Source of the DNA: Thalassobium sp.
GTDB lineage: Bacteria; Pseudomonadota; Gammaproteobacteria; Pseudomonadales; Oceanobacteraceae
Reading direction: 5' to 3'
Assembly (NCBI GenBank): GCA_002733205.1
Contig: NVUW01000001.1
Coordinates: forward strand, 372,001 to 436,000
Length of the DNA stretch: 64,000 bases
Shown here: positions 1 through 57,692 of the stretch, one piece after another
How the letters are laid out: the number at the start of each line of letters is the position of its first letter
Position numbering within the stretch: position 1 is the first letter of the stretch
The notes under the pieces: generated by a model
Database searches by the model: none
What the model was told of the DNA's origin: nothing
The model's input: only the letters and a program-made list of their open reading frames with translations
Made by a program: the position numbers and the translations under genes

Positions 1-650
1 AGTTCATCCTCAACGGCAGACGCCAATCCCAGCGCACGGGTACCGATATTCAGACGTCTGGAAAGGTACAAACCACCATCGCGGTAGAGATAAATCATGC
101 CGTCGTCAGCATCCAGCCGCAGCACGCCAACTGCCGTCTCCGGCTCCATTTCAGCGACCAGATGCAACAGACTGAGTTCGGGAATGGTGATACTGCTCAA
201 CGCTAATTGCTGATGTTTACACCAGCGCACCAGCTCTTTGATGCGGCGGTGATCAATAACCACCGCAAAGGCCATCTCCAATCGCTGGCGATACGCGTCA
301 GCGGGCATGCGGAAGCCCTGAATGACTTTTTGTTCGGCCCCCTGCGGCAGCAGATCACGCATACGGAAACGCAGCGCGTCGCCCAGCTCGTCATCGCTTA
401 CCGCCGGCGCTTCAACCAGGTGTAATTCATAATCGAGGGCATCCAGCGATAACACCGTGGCAACGCCATCCAGCGCCTGATGCCGTATCCAGGCCGCCAA
501 TCCGTCCAATCCCTGATCGCCGGGCTGCGGACGGAAGCATTCGCGTATCGTCCCGCCGTCGCGCAATACGGCAAAGCCTCTGCCCTGGTGCAATTCAATG
601 CCCAGACAGCGTAAATCCTGAACGGTTTGTTTCTGCCAAGGCCAGCGCAT
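1..650 (-). CDS. mshI: MSHA pilus biogenesis protein MshI-like (PilM/GspL-type), 3' end outside window
   Basis: An open frame runs on the minus strand from ATG at 650 to the window edge without a stop (216 codons visible). It is preceded by the strong ribosome site AGAGGTGG. The translation contains VLSLDALDYELHLVEAPAV followed by DELGDALRFRMRDLLPQGAE, which resembles the 'YQLLLVEAP ... LREALRWRIKDL' signature of MshI, the actin-like PilM-type cytoplasmic component of the MSHA type IV pilus assembly platform. Other msh genes would be expected to the left of the window. The family assignment rests on motif memory, not a search; a GspL/PilM-like protein of another pilus system is the alternative. 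Confidence 0.72.
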   Translation of the reverse strand, partial: MRWPWQKQTVQDLRCLGIELHQGRGFAVLRDGGTIRECFRPQPGDQGLDGLAAWIRHQALDGVATVLSLDALDYELHLVEAPAVSDDELGDALRFRMRDLLPQGAEQKVIQGFRMPADAYRQRLEMAFAVVIDHRRIKELVRWCKHQQLALSSITIPELSLLHLVAEMEPETAVGVLRLDADDGMIYLYRDGGLYLSRRLNIGTRALGLASAVEDE

Positions 651-10822: not shown

Positions 10823-11686
10823 ATGAATTCATCCTTGTTATTTTTATTATCAAGACGTTGCCGGCCAATATTCAGTCTGCTCTGTTGTGCCGCCCTGGTT
10901 TTTATCGTTCCTGCAGAAATCACCTTCGCCGATGATGGAATCCCCCCTGTGCGCTCCATACCTCTGTTGGCTACGTCGACGGTAAAGCCCTGGGGATTTG
11001 CGGATACTGACAGAACCCGCAAAGGCATGCTGATTGATTTTCAGAATACCCTGTTCAGCCGCGCCAACATTGCCGTTAACAACGTGCTTGAGCCTTATCC
11101 GCGGGTTATTCAGGATATCGAAAAAGGCGATGCTGACATTGCCGTCATGTTTGTCAGTCCACAGGCCAACCGTATTGCTCATTCGCTGGGTAACGTTCTC
11201 AGTGAGCGTATTGTGATTGTGGTAAAAGCGGGGAGTAAAGAATACCGCTCGCTGGATGATTTTAATGGCCAGAACATTGGCCAGGTCCGTGGCTCAAAAT
11301 ATGGTGATGCCTTTGACAATCATCCGGGCATTACCCGTGTGGCCCTGACCGATGTCGAACAGGGGTTAAAAATGCTGCTCGCCGGGCGGTTGGATGCCAT
11401 GGCCAGCACCGAACATTCATTGCTGTTTGCCATGTACAGCGCCGGCATTAATGCCGCCGATATTCAATTGGCTTTGCCGTTGTTTACCGCCCGTGCGGAT
11501 TTGTACGTTGCCCGCCATGCGATGCAGGCCGAATGGGTAAAACCTGTTGAGCAGACGCTTACCGCCATGCGCAACGATGGCAGCCTGACGCAAGCGCTCT
11601 ATCAGAATAAGTACTGGCCGTATGACAGCTATTGCTTCAGCGGCGGACAATGCCTTAATGGTCACCAGGCATCCGCGGAAAAGTAA
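10823..11686 (+). CDS. Periplasmic substrate-binding protein, SBP family 3-like
   Basis: 287-residue secreted protein of the bacterial solute-binding family 3/PBPb fold. A hydrophobic signal sequence (about 14-36) precedes the mature part. Matches include KGMLIDFQNTLFSRANIAV, YPRVIQDIEKGDADIAVMF, SLDDFNGQNIGQVRGSKYG and GLKMLLAGRLDAMASTEHS. No ABC permease or ATPase and no sensor domain is adjacent. It may therefore be an orphan binding protein or act with a transporter or signalling partner elsewhere. Substrate unknown. Two cysteines near the C-terminus (CFSGGQC) may form a disulfide. Confidence 0.75.
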   Translation: MNSSLLFLLSRRCRPIFSLLCCAALVFIVPAEITFADDGIPPVRSIPLLATSTVKPWGFADTDRTRKGMLIDFQNTLFSRANIAVNNVLEPYPRVIQDIEKGDADIAVMFVSPQANRIAHSLGNVLSERIVIVVKAGSKEYRSLDDFNGQNIGQVRGSKYGDAFDNHPGITRVALTDVEQGLKMLLAGRLDAMASTEHSLLFAMYSAGINAADIQLALPLFTARADLYVARHAMQAEWVKPVEQTLTAMRNDGSLTQALYQNKYWPYDSYCFSGGQCLNGHQASAEK

Positions 11687-33805: not shown

Positions 33806-33982
33806 ATGTACGATTACCGCCTTGGATTGGCACTGTTGGTGGGGATTTATATGTTCTCCCCCATCATGATGGACTGGTGGCTGGATGACCGCGGCGCCTG
33901 GTACAAACCCTTTGCTGTCTGGCTATTGTTGATTGGCTTTTACATCTGGCTGAACCATAAGCGGGGTGATGATGAGCTTTAG
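33806..33982 (+). CDS. cbrX: Small membrane protein CbrX-like, coupled to cbrA
   Basis: 58 residues with two transmembrane helices (LGLALLVGIYMFSPIMM and FAVWLLLIGFYIWLN), start ATG 33806. It occupies the position of cbrX, the small ORF that precedes and overlaps cbrA in Pseudomonas and is needed for efficient cbrA translation. Here its last codons overlap the cbrA start by 11 bases, so coupling is likely. The longer frame to 33644 overlaps gluQRS and is not used. Identification by position and size rather than sequence. Confidence 0.72.
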   Translation: MYDYRLGLALLVGIYMFSPIMMDWWLDDRGAWYKPFAVWLLLIGFYIWLNHKRGDDEL

Positions 33983-36902
33983 TCTGGGTCAGCTGGGGCT
34001 GATCGTTCTGGGCTACCTCGGCGCATTATTTACCACCGCCTACTCCGTTGAACGCGGCTGGGTGCCACGCCACTGGGTACGCCATCCACTGGTGTATATC
34101 TTCTCATTGGGGGTTTATGCCAGCGCCTGGGCCTTTTATGGCTCGGTCGGTATGGCTAACCAATACGGCTATGGCTTCCTCGCCTATTACCTTGGCATCT
34201 CCGGCGCCTTCGTCATGTCGCCGATTCTGCTGCGTCCGATTCTGCATATTGCCCGTATTTATCAGCTGGGATCACTGGCCGATTTGCTCGCCTTCCGTTA
34301 CCGCTCGCGTCTGGCCGGTATGCTGGTGTCGGTGTTTACGCTGGCGGTAGTGATTCCGATGCTGACCCTGCAGATCAGCGCCATTGCCGACACCCTGCAT
34401 TTGCTCAACAGCGAATGGCCGGCGACCACGCTGGCATTCGGCTTCTGTATCATCATGATCATTTTTGCTGTGCTGTTCGGTGCGCGTCATGTATCGCCAC
34501 GGGAAAAGCACGAAGGGCTGGTCTTTGCCCTGGCCTTTGAATCCCTGCTGAAGCTGACCGCCATTCTGGTACTGGCCGGCGTGGCGTTATTTGGCATTTT
34601 TGATCAGGTTGGCGGTCTGGAGCAGTGGCTGATTGATAACCAGGACCGCCTGTCCAACCAGCAGATTACCCTGCAGGAAGGCCCGTGGCGCACGCTGCTG
34701 CTGGTGTTTTTTGCTGCCGCCATCGTCATGCCGCACATGTTTCATGTGACCTTCACCGAAAACGTAAACAGCGACGCGCTGAAACCGGCCAGCTGGGGTT
34801 TTCCGTTATTCCTGCTGGCCATGAGCATGGCGGTACCGCCGATTCTGTGGGCCGGGATTTATCTGGATGTTCAAACCCCGGCCGAATACTTTGCCATTGG
34901 TATCGGCCTGAAACTGGAATCACCGTTTCTGGTCATCCTGACTTTTGTCGGCGGCCTGGCCGCGGCCTCAGGCATCATGATTGTGATTACCCTGGCCACG
35001 GCGGCGATGTTTCTCAATCATCTGGTACTGCCCTTCCACAAACCCAGTCCGCGTCATGATTTTTATCGCTGGCTGCTGTGGATGCGGCGCTCGCTCATCG
35101 CTGGCATTCTGCTGCTCGCGTACGGTTTTTATCGTTCCGTCGGAGCCGATCTGGACCTTAACCGCCTGGGCATTCTTGCCTTTGTCGCCGCCCTGCAATT
35201 TTTGCCCGGCGTATTGGGCTTGTTGTACTGGCCGAAATCCAATCGCAAAGGATTTTTATCCGGCCTGATCGCCGGCATTCTGGTGTGGATCTACGCCATG
35301 CTGCTGCCGTTCTCCGAACTGGCGCTGGGCTGGAATGTTCCCCTGCCGCTGGCGGCGGTGGATGAAAGCAACTGGCACCTGGCGGCGCTGTCGGCCTTCG
35401 CCATTAACCTGCTGCTGTTTGTTTTGGTGAGCCTCAGCAGCAAGCAGAAAGCCTCGGAAATGTCCGCTGCCGAAGCCTGCTCCATCGATACCGTTTCGCG
35501 TCCCAGTCGCCGGCCGCTGATAGCCGGTAACTCCAATGATGTGATTATGTCGTTGAGCAAACCGCTGGGCCGTTACGTCGCTGAGCGCGAGGTGTATCAG
35601 GCGCTGACCGACCTCGACCTGCCCTCTTACGAAGACCGGCCCTACGCCCTGCGCCGCCTGCGCGCACGGCTGGAGGCCAATCTGTCCGGCCTGATGGGGC
35701 CAACCGTGGCGCACGATATTGTCAGCCGCTATCTGCCGTTTCAGGAAAATGCCGAACTCAGCGAAGATATTTACCAGATTGAACAGCGCCTGGAAGGCTT
35801 CCATGACCGCCTGAGCGGATTGGCCGGTGAACTGGATAACCTGCGCCGCTATCACCGTCAGACACTGGAACGCCTGCCGATGGGGGTGTGCTCGCTGGCC
35901 GATGACGGCGAGATTCTGATGTGGAATCAGGCGATGACTGAGCTGACCCAGATCGACGCCGCCCAGGTAACCGGCTCACACCTCAGCCGCCTGCCTCCTC
36001 CCTGGAACCGGTTGCTGCAGGACTTTGTCGTCAACGAACCGATGCACGAGCACAAAAAGCGCGTTGATATTGGTGCCCGTCCGCGCTGGTACAGCCTGCA
36101 TAAATCGGTCATCAAGCCCAGTGGCGGTCAGCCCGGCGGGATTGTTGTACTGATGGAAGATCAGACCGAAACCCAGTTGCTGGAAGACGAGCTGATGCAC
36201 AGCGAACGGCTGGCTTCTATTGGCCGTCTGGCTGCGGGTGTAGCGCACGAAATTGGCAACCCGATTACCGGTATCGACTGTCTGGCGCAAACCATCCGCT
36301 ACGAAACCGATAACCCCGAGCTGCTGGAAATGGCCAACCAGATTCAGGAGCAGACCAAACGGGTTACCCGCATCGTGCAGTCGCTGATGAACTTTGCCCA
36401 CGCCGGCCATCATTCTACCGAACACGAGCCGGTCAGCCTGGCGCATGTGATTGATGAGGCGATGCAACTCCTGCGCTTAAGCAAGCGCAGCCAGGACATT
36501 GCCTTTATTAATGAGTGTGCCGCTGACGTTATGGTGCTCGGCGATGACCAGCGTCTGGTACAGGTATTTGTCAATCTGCTGAGCAATGCCCGCGATGCCA
36601 GCGAGCCCGGACAAACCATTCGTGTCGTCGCAGAAACCGACGAGCACCAGGTGGTGTTGCGCATTATCGATCAGGGACATGGGATTCCGGCCGACAAGGT
36701 CGACCGCATTTTCGAACCTTTTTTCACCACCAAAGACGTCGGCAAAGGCACCGGACTGGGGCTGTCACTGGTGTACTCCATTATCGAAGAGCACTACGGT
36801 CACATCGCCATCGAAAGTCCGGTCGCCGACGGCCGCGGCACTTGTGTTAAAGTCAGTCTGCCACGTTATCATCACATTGAAGAATCGGAACCCGTTGCAT
36901 GA
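33972..36902 (+). CDS. cbrA: Sensor histidine kinase CbrA with Na+/solute symporter domain
   Basis: 976 aa. N-terminal SLC5/sodium-solute-symporter-like module with about 13 transmembrane helices (1-500), a linker, a PAS domain (about 625-730) and a histidine kinase core. The phospho-acceptor lies in LAAGVAHEIGNPITGIDCLA, and ATP-binding boxes are NLLSNARDASEPGQ, IDQGHGIPADKVDRIFEPFF and GTGLGLSLVYSI. CbrA senses carbon/nitrogen status (histidine transport in Pseudomonas) and phosphorylates CbrB. Three start codons in a row (GTG 33966, ATG 33969, ATG 33972); 33972 best fits the GGGG at 33963-33966. Overlaps cbrB by 4 bases (ATGA). Confidence 0.93.
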   Translation: MSFSLGQLGLIVLGYLGALFTTAYSVERGWVPRHWVRHPLVYIFSLGVYASAWAFYGSVGMANQYGYGFLAYYLGISGAFVMSPILLRPILHIARIYQLGSLADLLAFRYRSRLAGMLVSVFTLAVVIPMLTLQISAIADTLHLLNSEWPATTLAFGFCIIMIIFAVLFGARHVSPREKHEGLVFALAFESLLKLTAILVLAGVALFGIFDQVGGLEQWLIDNQDRLSNQQITLQEGPWRTLLLVFFAAAIVMPHMFHVTFTENVNSDALKPASWGFPLFLLAMSMAVPPILWAGIYLDVQTPAEYFAIGIGLKLESPFLVILTFVGGLAAASGIMIVITLATAAMFLNHLVLPFHKPSPRHDFYRWLLWMRRSLIAGILLLAYGFYRSVGADLDLNRLGILAFVAALQFLPGVLGLLYWPKSNRKGFLSGLIAGILVWIYAMLLPFSELALGWNVPLPLAAVDESNWHLAALSAFAINLLLFVLVSLSSKQKASEMSAAEACSIDTVSRPSRRPLIAGNSNDVIMSLSKPLGRYVAEREVYQALTDLDLPSYEDRPYALRRLRARLEANLSGLMGPTVAHDIVSRYLPFQENAELSEDIYQIEQRLEGFHDRLSGLAGELDNLRRYHRQTLERLPMGVCSLADDGEILMWNQAMTELTQIDAAQVTGSHLSRLPPPWNRLLQDFVVNEPMHEHKKRVDIGARPRWYSLHKSVIKPSGGQPGGIVVLMEDQTETQLLEDELMHSERLASIGRLAAGVAHEIGNPITGIDCLAQTIRYETDNPELLEMANQIQEQTKRVTRIVQSLMNFAHAGHHSTEHEPVSLAHVIDEAMQLLRLSKRSQDIAFINECAADVMVLGDDQRLVQVFVNLLSNARDASEPGQTIRVVAETDEHQVVLRIIDQGHGIPADKVDRIFEPFFTTKDVGKGTGLGLSLVYSIIEEHYGHIAIESPVADGRGTCVKVSLPRYHHIEESEPVA

Positions 36903-38296
36903 GTCACATCCTGGTTGTTGAAGACGAAGCCATTATCCGTCAGTCCGTGCGCCGCCTGTTGCAGCGTCATGACTACGAAGTCACCGATGTGGATTCCCTT
37001 GATGCCGCCAAACGTGAAGACTTCAGCCGTTACAGCCTGATCATCAGCGACCTGCGCCTGCCCGGCGGTATGGGAACCGAGCTGGTCGAGTTGGCCGGAG
37101 ACACCCCGGTACTGATCATGACCAGCTACGCCAGCCTGCGCTCCGCCGTCGATGCGATGAAAATGGGCGCGGTCGATTACATCGCCAAACCGTTTGATCA
37201 CGATGAAATGATCAAGGCCGTACAGCGTATTCTGAAAGAATCCAGCCTCAGCCATAAACCGACCAATACCGACCTGCGCAAAGAAGTCAGCCGCGAGTAT
37301 CCGGTCAGTGGCATTATTGGCAGCTGTGAACCCATGCTGCTGCTGTTCAAAAAAATTAATAAAGTTGCCCCTACCGATGCCACCGTCCTGATTCAGGGTG
37401 AATCGGGTACCGGTAAAGAACTGGTTGCACGGGCGCTGCACAACCAAAGCCGCCGCCACAACGCTGAAATGATTTCGGTGAACTGTGCCGCCATTCCGGA
37501 AACCCTGATCGAGTCCGAACTGTTCGGCCATGAAAAAGGCGCCTTTACCGGGGCCAATGCCATGCGTCAGGGCCTGGTTGAAGCGGCCGACGGCGGCACC
37601 CTGTTTCTCGATGAAATCGGTGAATTACCCCTCGAAGCCCAGGCGCGCTTGCTGCGGGTATTGCAGGAAGGTGAGATTCGCCGTGTTGGCTCAGTACAAA
37701 GCAGAAAAGTCGATGTGCGTCTGGTGGCCGCAACCCACCGTAATCTGAAAGACCTCGCCAGCCGTGGTGAATTCCGTGAAGACCTTTATTACCGCCTGAA
37801 TGTGGTTGAGCTGCATTTACCAGCGCTGCGCGAACGGGGCGACGATGTGGTCGAAATTGCCGCCGCCATGCTCACCCGCGCCTGCGAGAAAATGCAGCAG
37901 CCAGCGATGCACTTTACCGCAGAGGCCACTCAGGCCATCCGCCAGTACAACTGGCCGGGTAACGTACGTGAGCTGGAAAACGCGGTGGAACGTGCCGTGA
38001 TTCTGGCCGATGACGACAGGATTGAGGCTGAATTATTGGGTATCGACCTGTCACCGGATCGCTACGTCAGCCCGGCAATGCGTGAAAACCTGCTGCAGAA
38101 TGAACAATACGGGCCAGTTGATGGTCAGACCCAGCAAGGCGATCTATCTTTGGATGATTACTTTGTGCACTTTGTGCTGGAAAACGAGCACAACATGACC
38201 GAGACCGATCTGGCACGCAAACTCGGAATATCGCGTAAAAGCCTGTGGGAACGCCGTCAGCGTCTGGGCATCCCGCGCAAGAAAGGCAGCAAGTAG
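36899..38296 (+). CDS. cbrB: NtrC-family response regulator CbrB
   Basis: Sigma-54 activator, 465 aa: receiver domain (phospho-Asp in [11 protein letters not shown], conserved Lys in [10 protein letters not shown]), AAA+ domain (Walker [21 protein letters not shown] loop for sigma-54 contact; Walker [14 protein letters not shown]; arginine finger region EGEIRRVGS) and Fis-type HTH ([19 protein letters not shown]). In Pseudomonas CbrB turns on crcZ from the next intergenic region and so relieves Crc/Hfq repression. The two sigma-54 promoters found directly downstream are its obvious targets. Confidence 0.95.
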
Positions 38297-38342
38297 TCAT
38301 TCACGCCCTGAGCCAGGCTCAGATCAACCTCTGCCAGCGCAC

Positions 38343-38462
38343 AAAGTGTAACCGCCCGGTTACACTTTCTTCTCAATATCAGTCATTTACCGCCACCAGC
38401 GGTAACACTTTAGTGGAACGCAATTCGCGCCACCTCTCTCGAAAACCCACAACCCATTGATA
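38343..38462 (+). promoter_or_regulatory. Enhancer sites and IHF site for the first CrcZ-type RNA
   Basis: Two palindromes lie 85-150 bp before the sigma-54 promoter: AAAGTGTAACC-GCCC-GGTTACACTTT (38343-38368) and TTACCGC-CACCA-GCGGTAA (38387-38405). The block GTAACACTTTAGTGGAAC (38402-38419) recurs with one change upstream of the second promoter. The IHF consensus WATCAAnnnnTTR is matched perfectly on the minus strand at 38450-38462 (TATCAATGGGTTG), beside an A/T tract. CbrB as binder is inferred. Confidence 0.7.
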
Positions 38463-38490
38463 TTTAACAATTTTATTTTATTTTCACTTA

Positions 38491-38507
38491 TTGGCATGGC
38501 ATTCGCT
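38491..38507 (+). promoter_or_regulatory. Sigma-54 promoter of first CrcZ-type RNA
   Basis: TTGGCATGGCATTCGCT: GG (38493-38494) and GC (38505-38506) are 10 bases apart as sigma-54 requires. It differs from TTGGCACGnnnnTTGCW at two positions. Transcription should start near 38518. Confidence 0.75.
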
Positions 38508-38517
38508 ATATAGTTAT

Positions 38518-38690
38518 CAAAGCAATAAAAAATGCGCCTCATAAAATAAAAATAAGAATCCTGAGCGCGACAGGCCAAACAATAAAAATAAAACCGGCCA
38601 TTGAGTTCATAACAATAATAACAAGCCCCGACTCACTGAAAGACGATTGCTTTGCCTGCGAAACAGCTGGCAAAGCAATCATCTCTCTTA
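38518..38690 (+). ncRNA. CrcZ-type Hfq/Crc-titrating RNA, upstream copy
   Basis: About 170-nt predicted RNA with four clusters of overlapping CA motifs (AAnAAnAA): near 38523, 38543-38558, 38579-38593 and 38610-38622. The second sits in the loop of hairpin GCG-C-CTC / GAG-CGC (38534-38540 with 38563-38568). The third is flanked by GGCC (38573) and GGCC (38596). No ORF is present. Own sigma-54 promoter and a 12-bp terminator stem. Shorter than Pseudomonas CrcZ (about 400 nt). Confidence 0.75.
38645..38690 (+). terminator. Terminator of the upstream CrcZ-type RNA
   Basis: Perfect 12-bp stem GATTGCTTTGCC (38645-38656) / GGCAAAGCAATC (38669-38680), followed by ATCTCTCTTAT. The T tract is interrupted, so read-through is possible. 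Confidence 0.7.
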
Positions 38691-38959
38691 TCTGACCCAC
38701 TCTTGTTCATCCAACATCTGATTCATACAAACTCTGTTTTTAGCAAACGCTTCCCCATAACCGCTCCGGTATCGCCCCCTGTTCAAGCCATCACGCCTGA
38801 TGCGCAGCGACACTACTCTTTGATTACGGCATAACACTCAGTACAACAGCACATCCGTTTCTATCTGCTCAGTCATGCTCTGAAGCCGCGCTCCTCTCAT
38901 GCCATCCATGAAACAAAAGCCATGCTTTATCATGATCAAAAAAGCGCCAGCATTCACAG
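38691..38959. other. Non-coding spacer between the two RNA units
   Basis: About 270 bases without a gene-like ORF, CA motif or terminator. Only short random frames are present. It may contain the 3' tail of read-through transcripts. Confidence 0.5.
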
Positions 38960-39094
38960 GTTACCCTGACATGCCACAAAGGTTACACGTTGTTACCCTG
39001 GGAACGTTTATTGTTACCTCAGGCCTCGAATGAAGTAACACTTTAGTCGAACACATTGGTAACAACACCTTATAAAAACAGTAACCTACTGATT
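38960..39094 (+). promoter_or_regulatory. Enhancer array and IHF site for the second CrcZ-type RNA
   Basis: Four GTTAC pentamers (38960, 38982, 38992, 39013) are followed by three GTAAC pentamers (39035, 39059, 39081). GTAACACTTTAGTCGAAC (39035-39052) repeats the block of the first unit (17 of 18). An IHF-like site (AATCAGTAGGTTA on the minus strand) lies at 39082-39094. All are within 160 bp of the sigma-54 promoter; CbrB binding is inferred. Confidence 0.7.
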
Positions 39095-39112
39095 TTAAAG
39101 GAAAATTAAAAT

Positions 39113-39129
39113 CTGGCACGACGAATGCT
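39113..39129 (+). promoter_or_regulatory. Sigma-54 promoter of crcZ
   Basis: CTGGCACGACGAATGCT: full TGGCACG -24 box, GG (39115-39116) to GC (39127-39128) 10 bases apart, -12 box TGCT. Start expected near 39140. Confidence 0.87.
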
Positions 39130-39139
39130 TTATACATAA

Positions 39140-39416
39140 CAGAACACTGCGGCGAACAATAAAAATAACAAACGTCCTCAGTGCCAAACCGGCGACTTAT
39201 AAAAATAACAAAGCGCCGGAACAAACGGTCTTCGATAACAACAACAATAAAAGACCGGTGTTATGAACACGCTGTTTTGAATGCACAGCTCCATGCTGTG
39301 AAGAATAAGAAAAATAAAGGGCAGGAACCTGTCCATTCAAAACAGTCGGTTCGCCAGGTTGAAAAATAACAATAAGAAAAGAGCAGACTCACAAAGCCGC
39401 CCATGCGGCTTTTTGT
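39140..39416 (+). ncRNA. crcZ: CrcZ small RNA (Hfq/Crc-sequestering), downstream copy
   Basis: About 275-nt RNA between cbrB and pcnB, the syntenic position of crcZ in Pseudomonas. Five CA clusters: 39155-39171, 39199-39211, 39235-39252, 39302-39317 and 39361-39380. Three are loops of stems: CACTG/CAGTG (39145 and 39179), CCGGCG-a-CTT/AAG-CGCCGG (39189 and 39211), CGGTCTT/AAGACCG (39226 and 39251). CrcZ binds Hfq (with Crc) when poor carbon sources activate CbrAB, freeing catabolic mRNAs. The minus-strand frame over this region is not credible. Confidence 0.85.
39393..39416 (+). terminator. Terminator of crcZ
   Basis: AAAGCCGC-CCAT-GCGGCTTT then TTGTTT. It lies about 110 bases before the pcnB start, so pcnB is mostly separate from crcZ. 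Confidence 0.88.
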
Positions 39417-39501
39417 TTGCCTGCAATTTGTTCACCGTGCCTCACGCTCTGTATTGCTCCATATTTATCGCCGCTAAGAACCGCACAGATGAAGGTGCAG
39501 C

Positions 39502-39531
39502 ATGATTCAGAGGTTCCTTAAATTCAGGTGA
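39502..39531 (+). CDS. Possible 9-codon leader ORF overlapping the pcnB start
   Basis: ATG 39502 with AAGGTG ribosome site encodes MIQRFLKFR and stops at TGA within GTGA, overlapping the GTG start of pcnB. It may provide translational coupling. Alternatively it is the real N-terminus interrupted by a frame change, since PcnB proteins often begin with a short basic, hydrophobic stretch. Confidence 0.35.
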   Translation: MIQRFLKFR

Positions 39532-40973
39532 ACCGTTACACTCGCCTGCTTCTTTGCAAGACTAAGACTTCTGAATCCGTGAAACGGCCAACCAATTTGA
39601 TCAAATCTGTCATTCGCCTGTTCGGCAAAAAGAAAGCGCGCACCGATGTCCAACTGACCATCGTGCCACGTGATGAGCACAGCATCAGTCGTAATAACCT
39701 CAGCGAAAATGCTCTCAAGGTTCTGTATCGCCTGAATAAAGCCGGGCACCAGGCATTACTGGTTGGTGGTGGCGTTCGCGATACGCTGCTGGGCCTGCAT
39801 CCGAAAGACTTTGATGTCGCCACCGACGCGACCCCGGAGCAGGTGAATCAGCTGTTCCGCAATTCACGCCTGATCGGCCGTCGTTTCAAACTGGTACACG
39901 TGGTGTTTGGCCGTGACGTTATCGAAGTTGCCACCTTCCGCGCGCCGCCAACCGAAGAACATTCGAATAAAATTGCCGCCAAGGGCGATCAGGGCATGAT
40001 CCTGCGTGACAATGTCTACGGCAATAAAGATGAAGATGCCGTTCGTCGCGACTTCACCATTAATGCCTTGTATTACGACATTGCCGACTACAGCGTACAC
40101 GCCTATGCCGGTGGTTGGGATGATTTACAGAACCGTCGTCTGCGCCTGATTGGTGACCCGGAAACGCGTTATCGCGAAGACCCGGTGCGTATGCTTCGCG
40201 CTATTCGCTTTGCCGCTAAACTGGATTTCACCATTGAAGCGCACACCGCAGAACCGATTCCGGTAATGGCACCGCTGCTGACACAGATTCCGTCAGCTCG
40301 TTTATTTGAAGAAATCCTTAAACTGTTCCTGCACGGCAAAGCGCTCGATACTCTGCGTCTGCTGCGTGAGTACCAGCTGTTTGGCCCGCTGTTTCCGGCG
40401 ACCGAGCAGTGCCTGGGCGATGATGCACTGGCACTGACCATGGCCGAAAATACCATGCGCAACACCGATGAACGCATCCATGCGGGTAAATCGGTAACAC
40501 CGTATTTCTTCCTCGCTGCCCTGCTGTGGCCGCCATTGGTTCGTATCCAGAAAGAATTCGAAGCCAAAGGCATGGCACCGCATCCGGCCCTGCAAAAAGC
40601 CGCCGACCGCGTGCTGGCACAACAGATTCAAAGCACCGCCATTCCTAAGCGTTTCTCCATTCCGATGCGTGAAATCTGGGAGATGCAATTGCGTCTGGCC
40701 CGCACCCAAAGCCGTAAAGCGGAAGATCTGCTGACCCACCCACGCTTCCGCGCTGCCTATGACTTCGTGCTGCTGCGCGAGCAGTCCGGTGAGAACCTGA
40801 ATGGCATCGGTGGCTTCTGGACGCGCCTGCAACAGGAGCATCCGGACCTGGTGCAAAGCCGCCCACCCCGCGATTTTGATCGTAATAACGAATCGGGCGA
40901 TCAGGGCGAATTCAAAAAACGCCGCCGTCGCGCACCGCGTAACCGCAACCGCCGCCCGCCTCAGGCTAACTGA
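39528..40973 (+). CDS. pcnB: Poly(A) polymerase I
   Basis: Class II nucleotidyltransferase that adds poly(A) tails to RNA and so speeds decay. HQALLVGGGVRDTLLGLHPK and DFDVATDATPEQ hold the catalytic GG and D-x-D; RRFKLVHVVFGRDVIEVATF, RDNVYGNKDEDAVRRDFTIN and EDPVRMLRAIRFAAKLDFTI complete the head and neck. The C-terminus is basic (KKRRRRAPRNRNRR). 481 aa. GTG start at 39528 has a poor ribosome site of its own. Located between crcZ and folK, as in pseudomonads. Confidence 0.96.
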   Translation: MNRYTRLLLCKTKTSESVKRPTNLIKSVIRLFGKKKARTDVQLTIVPRDEHSISRNNLSENALKVLYRLNKAGHQALLVGGGVRDTLLGLHPKDFDVATDATPEQVNQLFRNSRLIGRRFKLVHVVFGRDVIEVATFRAPPTEEHSNKIAAKGDQGMILRDNVYGNKDEDAVRRDFTINALYYDIADYSVHAYAGGWDDLQNRRLRLIGDPETRYREDPVRMLRAIRFAAKLDFTIEAHTAEPIPVMAPLLTQIPSARLFEEILKLFLHGKALDTLRLLREYQLFGPLFPATEQCLGDDALALTMAENTMRNTDERIHAGKSVTPYFFLAALLWPPLVRIQKEFEAKGMAPHPALQKAADRVLAQQIQSTAIPKRFSIPMREIWEMQLRLARTQSRKAEDLLTHPRFRAAYDFVLLREQSGENLNGIGGFWTRLQQEHPDLVQSRPPRDFDRNNESGDQGEFKKRRRRAPRNRNRRPPQAN

Positions 40974-57437: not shown

Positions 57438-57692
57438 TTACTCGTCGCTGCTACCATCAACTTCGCCGGTATCTGCAGGCTGCAGACGCACATTGCGGGA
57501 TGGCACAACAGTAGAAATTGCGTGTTTATAAACCATCTGACTAACAGTGTTTTTCAACAAAATAACAAATTGGTCGAATGATTCGATCTGACCTTGCAGC
57601 TTGATGCCGTTTACCAGAAAAATAGACACTGGAATACGTTCTTTGCGCAGCTGATTGAGGTAAGGGTCTTGTAGAGAATGCCCTTTTGACAT
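57438..57692 (-). CDS. hfq: RNA chaperone Hfq
   Basis: 84-residue Sm-like hexamer that pairs small RNAs with targets and, with Crc, binds A-rich CA motifs on its distal face. Sm1: [20 protein letters not shown] then DQFVILLKN; Sm2: [17 protein letters not shown]-terminus [20 protein letters not shown] is canonical. ATG 57692 has AAGGAG at 8 bases; in-frame ATG 57740 is rejected. The CrcZ-type RNAs (38.5-39.4 kb) and the Fur-regulated RNA (27.6 kb) are likely ligands. Confidence 0.98.

Follow-up and report, generated by a model that had tools for sequence, protein, structure and literature searches.

The small RNA CrcZ is a decoy that targets the distal face of Hfq (PMC4063720, PMC9890229). 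In P. aeruginosa, it carries six (ARN)n motifs with n ≥ 4 (PMC4063720), and the three-subsite enhancer of P. putida has the order F1-R1-R2 (PMC6296734). Additional decoys are known, namely CrcY (P. putida and A. vinelandii) and CrcX (P. syringae; PMC8871633); in P. putida, transcription of crcY can proceed from PP3539-mvaB but not from cbrB (PMC6292655). RsmY/RsmZ and CsrB/CsrC likewise work as decoys, titrating an RNA-binding repressor (PMC4063720). As for the distribution of the system, a 2018 paper described CbrAB as exclusive to pseudomonads (PMC6296734), and a 2022 review regarded the system as unique to the Pseudomonadaceae on account of its conserved cbrA-cbrB-crcZ synteny (PMC8871633). 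In the literature that we searched (mostly non-subscription, and at the level of titles and the openings of abstracts), we found neither tandem CrcZ-like genes nor CbrAB-CrcZ outside the Pseudomonadaceae.

We analyzed a 64,000-nt stretch of DNA from Thalassobium sp. (contig NVUW01000001.1; "the window"). The gap between cbrB (the stop codon ends at 38296) and pcnB (which starts at about 39528) contains two complete CrcZ-like units, which we will term A (upstream, short) and B (downstream, long; Table 1). An earlier note on this DNA had proposed as much, and each unit does have enhancer subsites, an IHF-like site, a promoter, A-rich blocks, and a terminator. The locus resembles crcZ of Pseudomonas and Azotobacter in its position between cbrB and pcnB, in having subsites at three similar distances, and in its sigma-54 promoter and (ARN)n blocks (checked in Pseudomonas fildesensis, locus L002). 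In contrast, crcZ encodes one RNA of about 400 nt, while here there are two, of about 175 nt (A) and 285 nt (B), both lengths being estimates from predicted starts. As with CrcY and CrcX, there would be a further CbrB-driven decoy in the same cell (this is a prediction here), but the second copy is adjacent to the first. RsmY/RsmZ and CsrB/CsrC act on another protein, through another motif (GGA), and have another layout. The earlier note's setting within Pseudomonas does not hold: CbrB is 61–65% identical to six named orthologues (from Pseudomonas, Serpens, two Gilvimarinus, and two MAGs), and the window's family (f1) is distinct from f21, the family that holds high-scoring CrcZ.

Table 1. Features of the cbrA-cbrB-pcnB region, and hfq, in the window.
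Feature	Position	Strand	Details
cbrA-like sensor kinase	33966..36902	+	ORF; named from its place before cbrB
cbrB, sigma-54-dependent response regulator	36899..38296	+	Homology to six named orthologues
Unit A enhancer	38347..38407	+	TGTAACC 38347, GGTTACA 38358, GGTAACA 38401
Unit A IHF consensus, TATCAATGGGTTG	38450..38462	-	No mismatch
Unit A sigma-54 promoter, TTGGCATGGCATTCGCT	38491..38507	+	10/12 consensus letters, GG-N10-GC
Unit A RNA, predicted ends	38516..38693	+	ARN blocks at 38521, 38545, 38578, 38611 (4, 5, 5, 5 triplets)
Unit A terminator, UCUCUCUU tail	38645..38690	+	12-bp hairpin 38645-38680; compensatory changes
Unit B enhancer	38991..39064	+	TGTTACC 38991, TGTTACC 39012, AGTAACA 39034, GGTAACA 39058
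Unit B IHF-like site	39082..39094	-	One mismatch; read from sequence and alignment
Unit B sigma-54 promoter, CTGGCACGACGAATGCT	39113..39129	+	11/12 consensus letters, GG-N10-GC
Unit B RNA, predicted ends	39138..39418	+	ARN blocks at 39155, 39201, 39237, 39301, 39362 (6, 4, 6, 6, 7 triplets)
Unit B terminator	39393..39418	+	Hairpin 39393-39412, then U-tract UUUUUGUUU
pcnB, poly(A) polymerase	39528..40973	+	TIGR01942 516.8 bits, cut-off 305.65
hfq	57438..57692	-	PF17209 104.6 bits; ORF

Signals, conservation, and structure of the two units

The signals in the gap are more frequent than in dinucleotide shuffles of it. GTTAC or GTAAC occurs 10 times, compared to a shuffle mean of 1.6, and there are nine A-rich clusters, compared to a mean of 2.2; neither count was reached in 2,000 shuffles. 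Two or more promoter sites with at least 10 of the 12 consensus letters were seen in 5 of 2,000 shuffles (mean 0.033). A single sigma-54-like site means little because there are 11 sites of this strength in the window as a whole (both strands counted). Across 84 gaps, there were 142 such sites in the sense orientation and none in antisense, with 2.0 expected from shuffles. The enhancer motifs at both units, the promoters at 38491 and 39113 with their exact GG-N10-GC spacing, the clusters (4 and 5, which are ARN blocks with n ≥ 4), and the two hairpin terminators are all as the earlier note described them. Its pair of IHF sites was recovered exactly for A and with one mismatch for B. A consensus scan gives a second one-mismatch site near that of B, and in the alignment, the relatives match the IHF consensus better than the window does at the B site.

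The earlier note also pointed to a block shared by the two units as a sign of duplication. The 18-mer GTAACACTTTAGTSGAAC does occur exactly at 38402 and at 39035, and the next-best place genome-wide has two mismatches. However, GTAACA is in place in 94 of 100 family units, and the letters that most often follow it there are C, T, T, and T (64, 55, 67, and 55%). As part of the 18-mer is common across the family, it is weak evidence for a recent duplication, which is not needed to explain it given these family-wide preferences.

In comparison with the seven other genomes of the genus that have an intact gap, two stretches stand out as conserved islands (38337-38696 and 38977-39416; identity of 0.55–0.95 per 40-nt bin), and an unconserved 280-nt spacer lies between them (38697-38976; identity of 0.20–0.38). 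When 13 A units and 17 B units are aligned, conservation is among the highest in the A-rich blocks. Both RNAs have better predicted folds than shuffled sequences (z = −5.4 for A and −7.8 for B). The RNAalifold structures have 24 (A) and 29 (B) pairs, and 9 and 12 of these, respectively, have compensatory changes in at least one sequence each; 94.6% (A) and 93.3% (B) of the alignment cells can pair. The covariation scores (0.241 for A and 0.272 for B) are above those of 500 of 500 column shuffles and of all six slid structures, but the structures came from the same alignments, and kinship alone can beat shuffles. In unit B, 24 of 500 shuffles had at least as many further pair types, and the first stem pairs in 80.8% of cells only. 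In the RNAalifold models, one stem of A and two stems of B would enclose an A-rich block.

Relationship to CrcZ and its partner proteins

The covariance-model search that the earlier note had recommended does not place either unit in the Rfam CrcZ family: RF01675 scores A at 25.6 bits and B at 30.9 bits, below its cut-off of 95. Among 4,227 Rfam families compared to the gap, RF01675 was the only one with E below 0.01, and it matched once per unit; the window has no Rfam match at the gathering level. The RF01675 cut-off was reached in none of 20 family genomes. Among six control loci, five passed (L002, L006, L130, and L131 at 272–350 bits, and L134 at 102.5) and L137 failed. The P. fildesensis control scores 349.6 bits and has six ARN blocks by the same count that we used for A and B. 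Of 194 genomes sampled from the order, just 9 have matches above the cut-off (42 with any match at E of 0.001, under stricter filters), and so the Rfam model overlooks most of the class.

In the features of CrcZ that can be checked in a sequence, the units do agree with it. Each lies between cbrB and pcnB, each has a sigma-54 promoter with CbrB-type subsites and an IHF site (these being sequence matches only), and each has several (ARN)n blocks with n ≥ 4 (4 in A and 5 in B). Because these features are present while the Rfam score is too low, we file A and B as CrcZ-like variants and not as members of RF01675. The CrcZ-type identity given in the earlier note is supported by the anatomy, conservation, and synteny and by the genes for CbrB, Hfq, and Crc, but not by the formal family.

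CbrB is clear by homology, and the genome also has genes for a kinase that we call CbrA-like from its place before cbrB, for Hfq, and for an orthologue of Crc. The best 25 of 70 NCBIfam matches to the CbrA-like kinase span only the kinase half (residues about 590–975), and all are below their cut-offs. The Crc orthologue is on another contig. Its best match in the PDB is P. aeruginosa Crc (E = 8.3e-77), and it scores 261.5 bits with Crc (4jg3) versus 61.1 bits with exonuclease III (1ako). It reads GNFEAAH where the genome's other ExoIII-like ORF, which retains the usual motif, reads GDMNISP; we take these positions to be catalytic residues. We assign it to Crc on these grounds: it is ExoIII-like, it is closest to Pseudomonas Crc, and its active site is changed. 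The neighboring ORFs are presumably rph and pyrE.

We found no local target in the window, as no ORF of at least 100 aa has an ARN run of five or more triplets between −60 and +40 relative to its start. There is an ARN run, AATAAAAATAACAAG, on the minus strand at 10834-10848, opposite the start of an ORF that we take to be a solute-binding protein. Its role is doubtful because of the strand.

Tandem units across the family and the order

We searched 113 genomes, including the window's own, and read the locus in 90 of them and at six named loci (96 in total). The 23 gaps outside this reading (G039 and 22 others) were mostly weak matches. Twelve of the 96 loci, as read, do not extend to pcnB (G003, G038, and G042 in the family and nine others) and are outside the per-gap counts. 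Of the 84 gaps counted, one appears twice (L004 and G099 are one and the same record, Gilvimarinus agarilyticus). Our own rule for a unit was a TGGC...GC promoter with 9 of 12 letters plus A-rich clusters and enhancers. It rejected seven sites, of which the one in G040 may be real, and it leaves out sites of 9 that do not start with TGGC (for example, at offset 117 in the window's gap).

By this rule, all 40 intact gaps from the family (the window's included) have two (24 gaps), three (14), or four (2) units, which answers the earlier note's call for a synteny check in related genomes. As read from these gaps, the tandem layout is a trait of the family. In contrast, among the 44 intact gaps from outside the family (with L004 counted twice), 35 have one unit, five have two, one has three, and three have none; with the duplicate removed, 34 of 43 have a single unit. 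Six other families each have one member with an array (G048, G054, G072, G080, G097, and G110). The loci in question (L145, L160, L168, L149, L157, and L143) have two or three units. G087 also has two units, and pcnB was not reached there. Overall, cbrB, a sigma-54 promoter, A-rich blocks, and pcnB are found together in 81 of the 84 gaps from the order (one record being present twice). The synteny of cbrB, a crcZ-like gene, and pcnB thus reaches beyond the Pseudomonadaceae, contrary to the 2022 review (PMC8871633).

The earlier note suggested that two copies would double the titration signal. The number of ARN blocks (n ≥ 4) per unit shows no difference between the family and other loci (median of 4 in both, P = 0.15), but the number per locus has a median of 9 (range 7–17) in the family versus 4 (range 0–14) elsewhere (40 and 40 loci, without L004 and three gaps that have no unit, and uncorrected for relatedness). 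The doubling is supported only as far as the encoded sites.

Some loci have unusual layouts. G009 (L183) has four units, and the third and fourth (at gap offsets 1224 and 1761) are identical in their promoter letters and in the spacing of their enhancers, which suggests a recent duplication. In G071 (L132), where pcnB was not reached, the stretch at gap offsets 465-1224 has one promoter that passes the rule and, after it, 21 A-rich clusters (501-1224), which might belong to a single very long decoy RNA rather than to several genes. L142 (G049) and L172 (G056) have A-rich clusters between cbrB and pcnB and no promoter that passes the rule.

Two kinds of unit

We built profiles for A and B from the units of the window's genus (g1), and all units, these training units included, were scored. 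First units that are A-like score 149–176 bits in g1, 44–82 in g5, g6, and g8, and 28–42 in g7. Last units that are B-like score 230–300 bits in g1, 56–104 in g2, g3, g5, g6, and g8 (with the exception of G036, at 20 bits), and 25–35 in g7. The cross-scores between A and B in g1 are just 10–24 bits, and g4 scores are weak for both profiles. In most g2 genomes, both the first and the last units are B-like and there is no clear A. With scores of 53–56 bits against a covariance model for unit A (R1), two G010 units (g3) and G028 (g2) look A-like. From these scores, A and B are apparently distinct and old kinds of unit, and A plus B was probably the ancestral state of the family, followed by loss and gain. 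The tandem would then be no local oddity, as both kinds are old and family-wide.

In one family member, G003, the two kinds are not adjacent. A follows cbrB at 398.1 kb on the plus strand (promoter 10/12), and B precedes pcnB at 386.3 kb on the minus strand, with GTTAC/GTAAC sites, an 11/12 promoter, and a terminator. The units are about 12 kb apart on opposite strands, and the ORFs upstream of B are presumably for haem or iron transport. As they are split and each has its own promoter, A and B are separable, and each persists without an adjoining partner.

In the window's genome, R1 gives one full-length match, and R2 (the covariance model for the core of unit B) has a full-score match at unit B only. 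In scans of 18 family genomes (of 44) with both models, none of the matches listed lay outside a cbrB-pcnB gap, except for the B unit of G003; some matches within gaps are antisense to A's own terminator. Since each genome gave about 700 to 2300 first-look candidates and only 150 were scored, divergent copies elsewhere may be missed. We rejected a CrcZ-like match in G007 (C45:36400-36626) as chance, as the stretch read there has no sigma-54 site of at least 9 on either strand and few A-rich clusters.

Enhancer and IHF sites compared with Pseudomonas

At the three expected places (±4 nt), the enhancer subsites read F/F/R in 39 of 100 family units and F/R/R in none. In contrast, of 54 units from elsewhere, 22 read F/R/R and one F/F/R. 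The remaining units of both groups are missing at least one site in place. F/R/R is present in all four loci that we checked for comparison with crcZ (L002, L006, G103, and G063). The IHF consensus is matched without mismatch in 53 of 100 family units, 10 of 54 other units, and about 1% of shuffles. In P. fildesensis (L002), the interval corresponding to the family's site has no IHF match (4 mismatches).

The two kinds of unit also differ from each other within the genus. Unit B has sites at about −123, −103, and −81. For unit A, an F site near −134 and an R site near −91 recur, the middle subsite is absent, and the enhancer is about one helical turn farther upstream. Because A's enhancer is displaced and has no middle subsite, a graded signal from A and B, as the earlier note suggested, is possible.

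How the tandem units might act

We propose that A and B are two independent small-RNA genes, each driven by CbrB and sigma-54, that titrate Hfq/Crc (probability about 0.85). By analogy to CrcZ, we infer that both are transcribed in a CbrB-dependent manner, that they bind Hfq/Crc, and that they have a physiological effect. When good carbon sources are exhausted, CbrB, with sigma-54 and IHF, would turn on A and B separately. The four or five A-R-N blocks of each RNA, some of them in hairpin loops, would then occupy the distal face of Hfq (with Crc). This would draw Hfq/Crc off catabolic mRNAs and lift carbon catabolite repression. A and B would be old paralogues or old parallel units that stand side by side in most of the family, so that the family's locus would encode about twice the decoy sites of the other loci that we read. 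In favor of this proposal are the signal counts above those of shuffles, the two conserved islands, the compensatory changes, the Rfam search in which CrcZ alone matched, the family-wide tandem layout, the split locus of G003, and the partner genes. Counting against it are the Rfam scores far below the cut-off, the poor U-tract after A, the lack of a local target in the window, and the missing IHF match in P. fildesensis.

Alternatively, there might be one long transcript, from promoter A or by read-through from cbrB, that is processed into two RNAs, with the second promoter being of minor importance. The U-tract after A's hairpin is poor, so read-through from A into B is possible, and cbrB-crcZ read-through with processing is reported from A. 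vinelandii and P. putida (PMC6292655). But the spacer between the units is unconserved, B has a complete promoter with a better sigma-54 match than A's, and in G003 B stands away from A with a promoter of its own, so we consider a single precursor to be unlikely. It seems highly improbable that the gap encodes small proteins or a leader of pcnB instead of small RNAs: although short ORFs of up to 87 aa overlap the gap, the conservation is in the A-rich blocks and stems, the indels are not multiples of three, and a hairpin terminator closes each unit before pcnB.

If A and B are indeed independent genes, it could be that only dosage matters and that any copy number from two to four suffices, with ongoing gain and loss. 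This would account for the varying copy number across the family, for the similar third and fourth units of G009, for the two or three units in 6 of the 44 intact gaps from elsewhere, and for the blocks differing per locus but not per unit. On the other hand, A and B can still be distinguished across genera and no intact family gap that we read has fewer than two units, and we rate dosage alone at a little under even odds. A more tentative idea is that labor is divided, with the two decoys differing in the CbrB level at which they respond or in their partner (Hfq alone or Hfq/Crc), which would lead to staged relief. The unlike spacing of the A and B enhancers would fit this, as would the sizes of the blocks in the window (4–5 triplets in A and 4–7 in B) and the persistence of two distinct kinds in several genera. 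However, most g2 genomes were read with two B-like units and without a clear A (the R1 match in G028 aside), so A would be dispensable over evolution.

Returning to two independent genes, the fuller picture that we would draw, with considerable reservation, is of a lineage-specific array: two old and functionally differentiated CrcZ-like RNAs with unlike enhancer geometry would answer to one regulator and give staged relief, within a CbrAB-Hfq-Crc system that extends across the order. One family would have turned a single decoy into an array of two to four copies with an altered enhancer. Such arrays are natural variants for a question that Pseudomonas and Azotobacter also pose, namely why a cell should have several apparently redundant decoys for Hfq/Crc.
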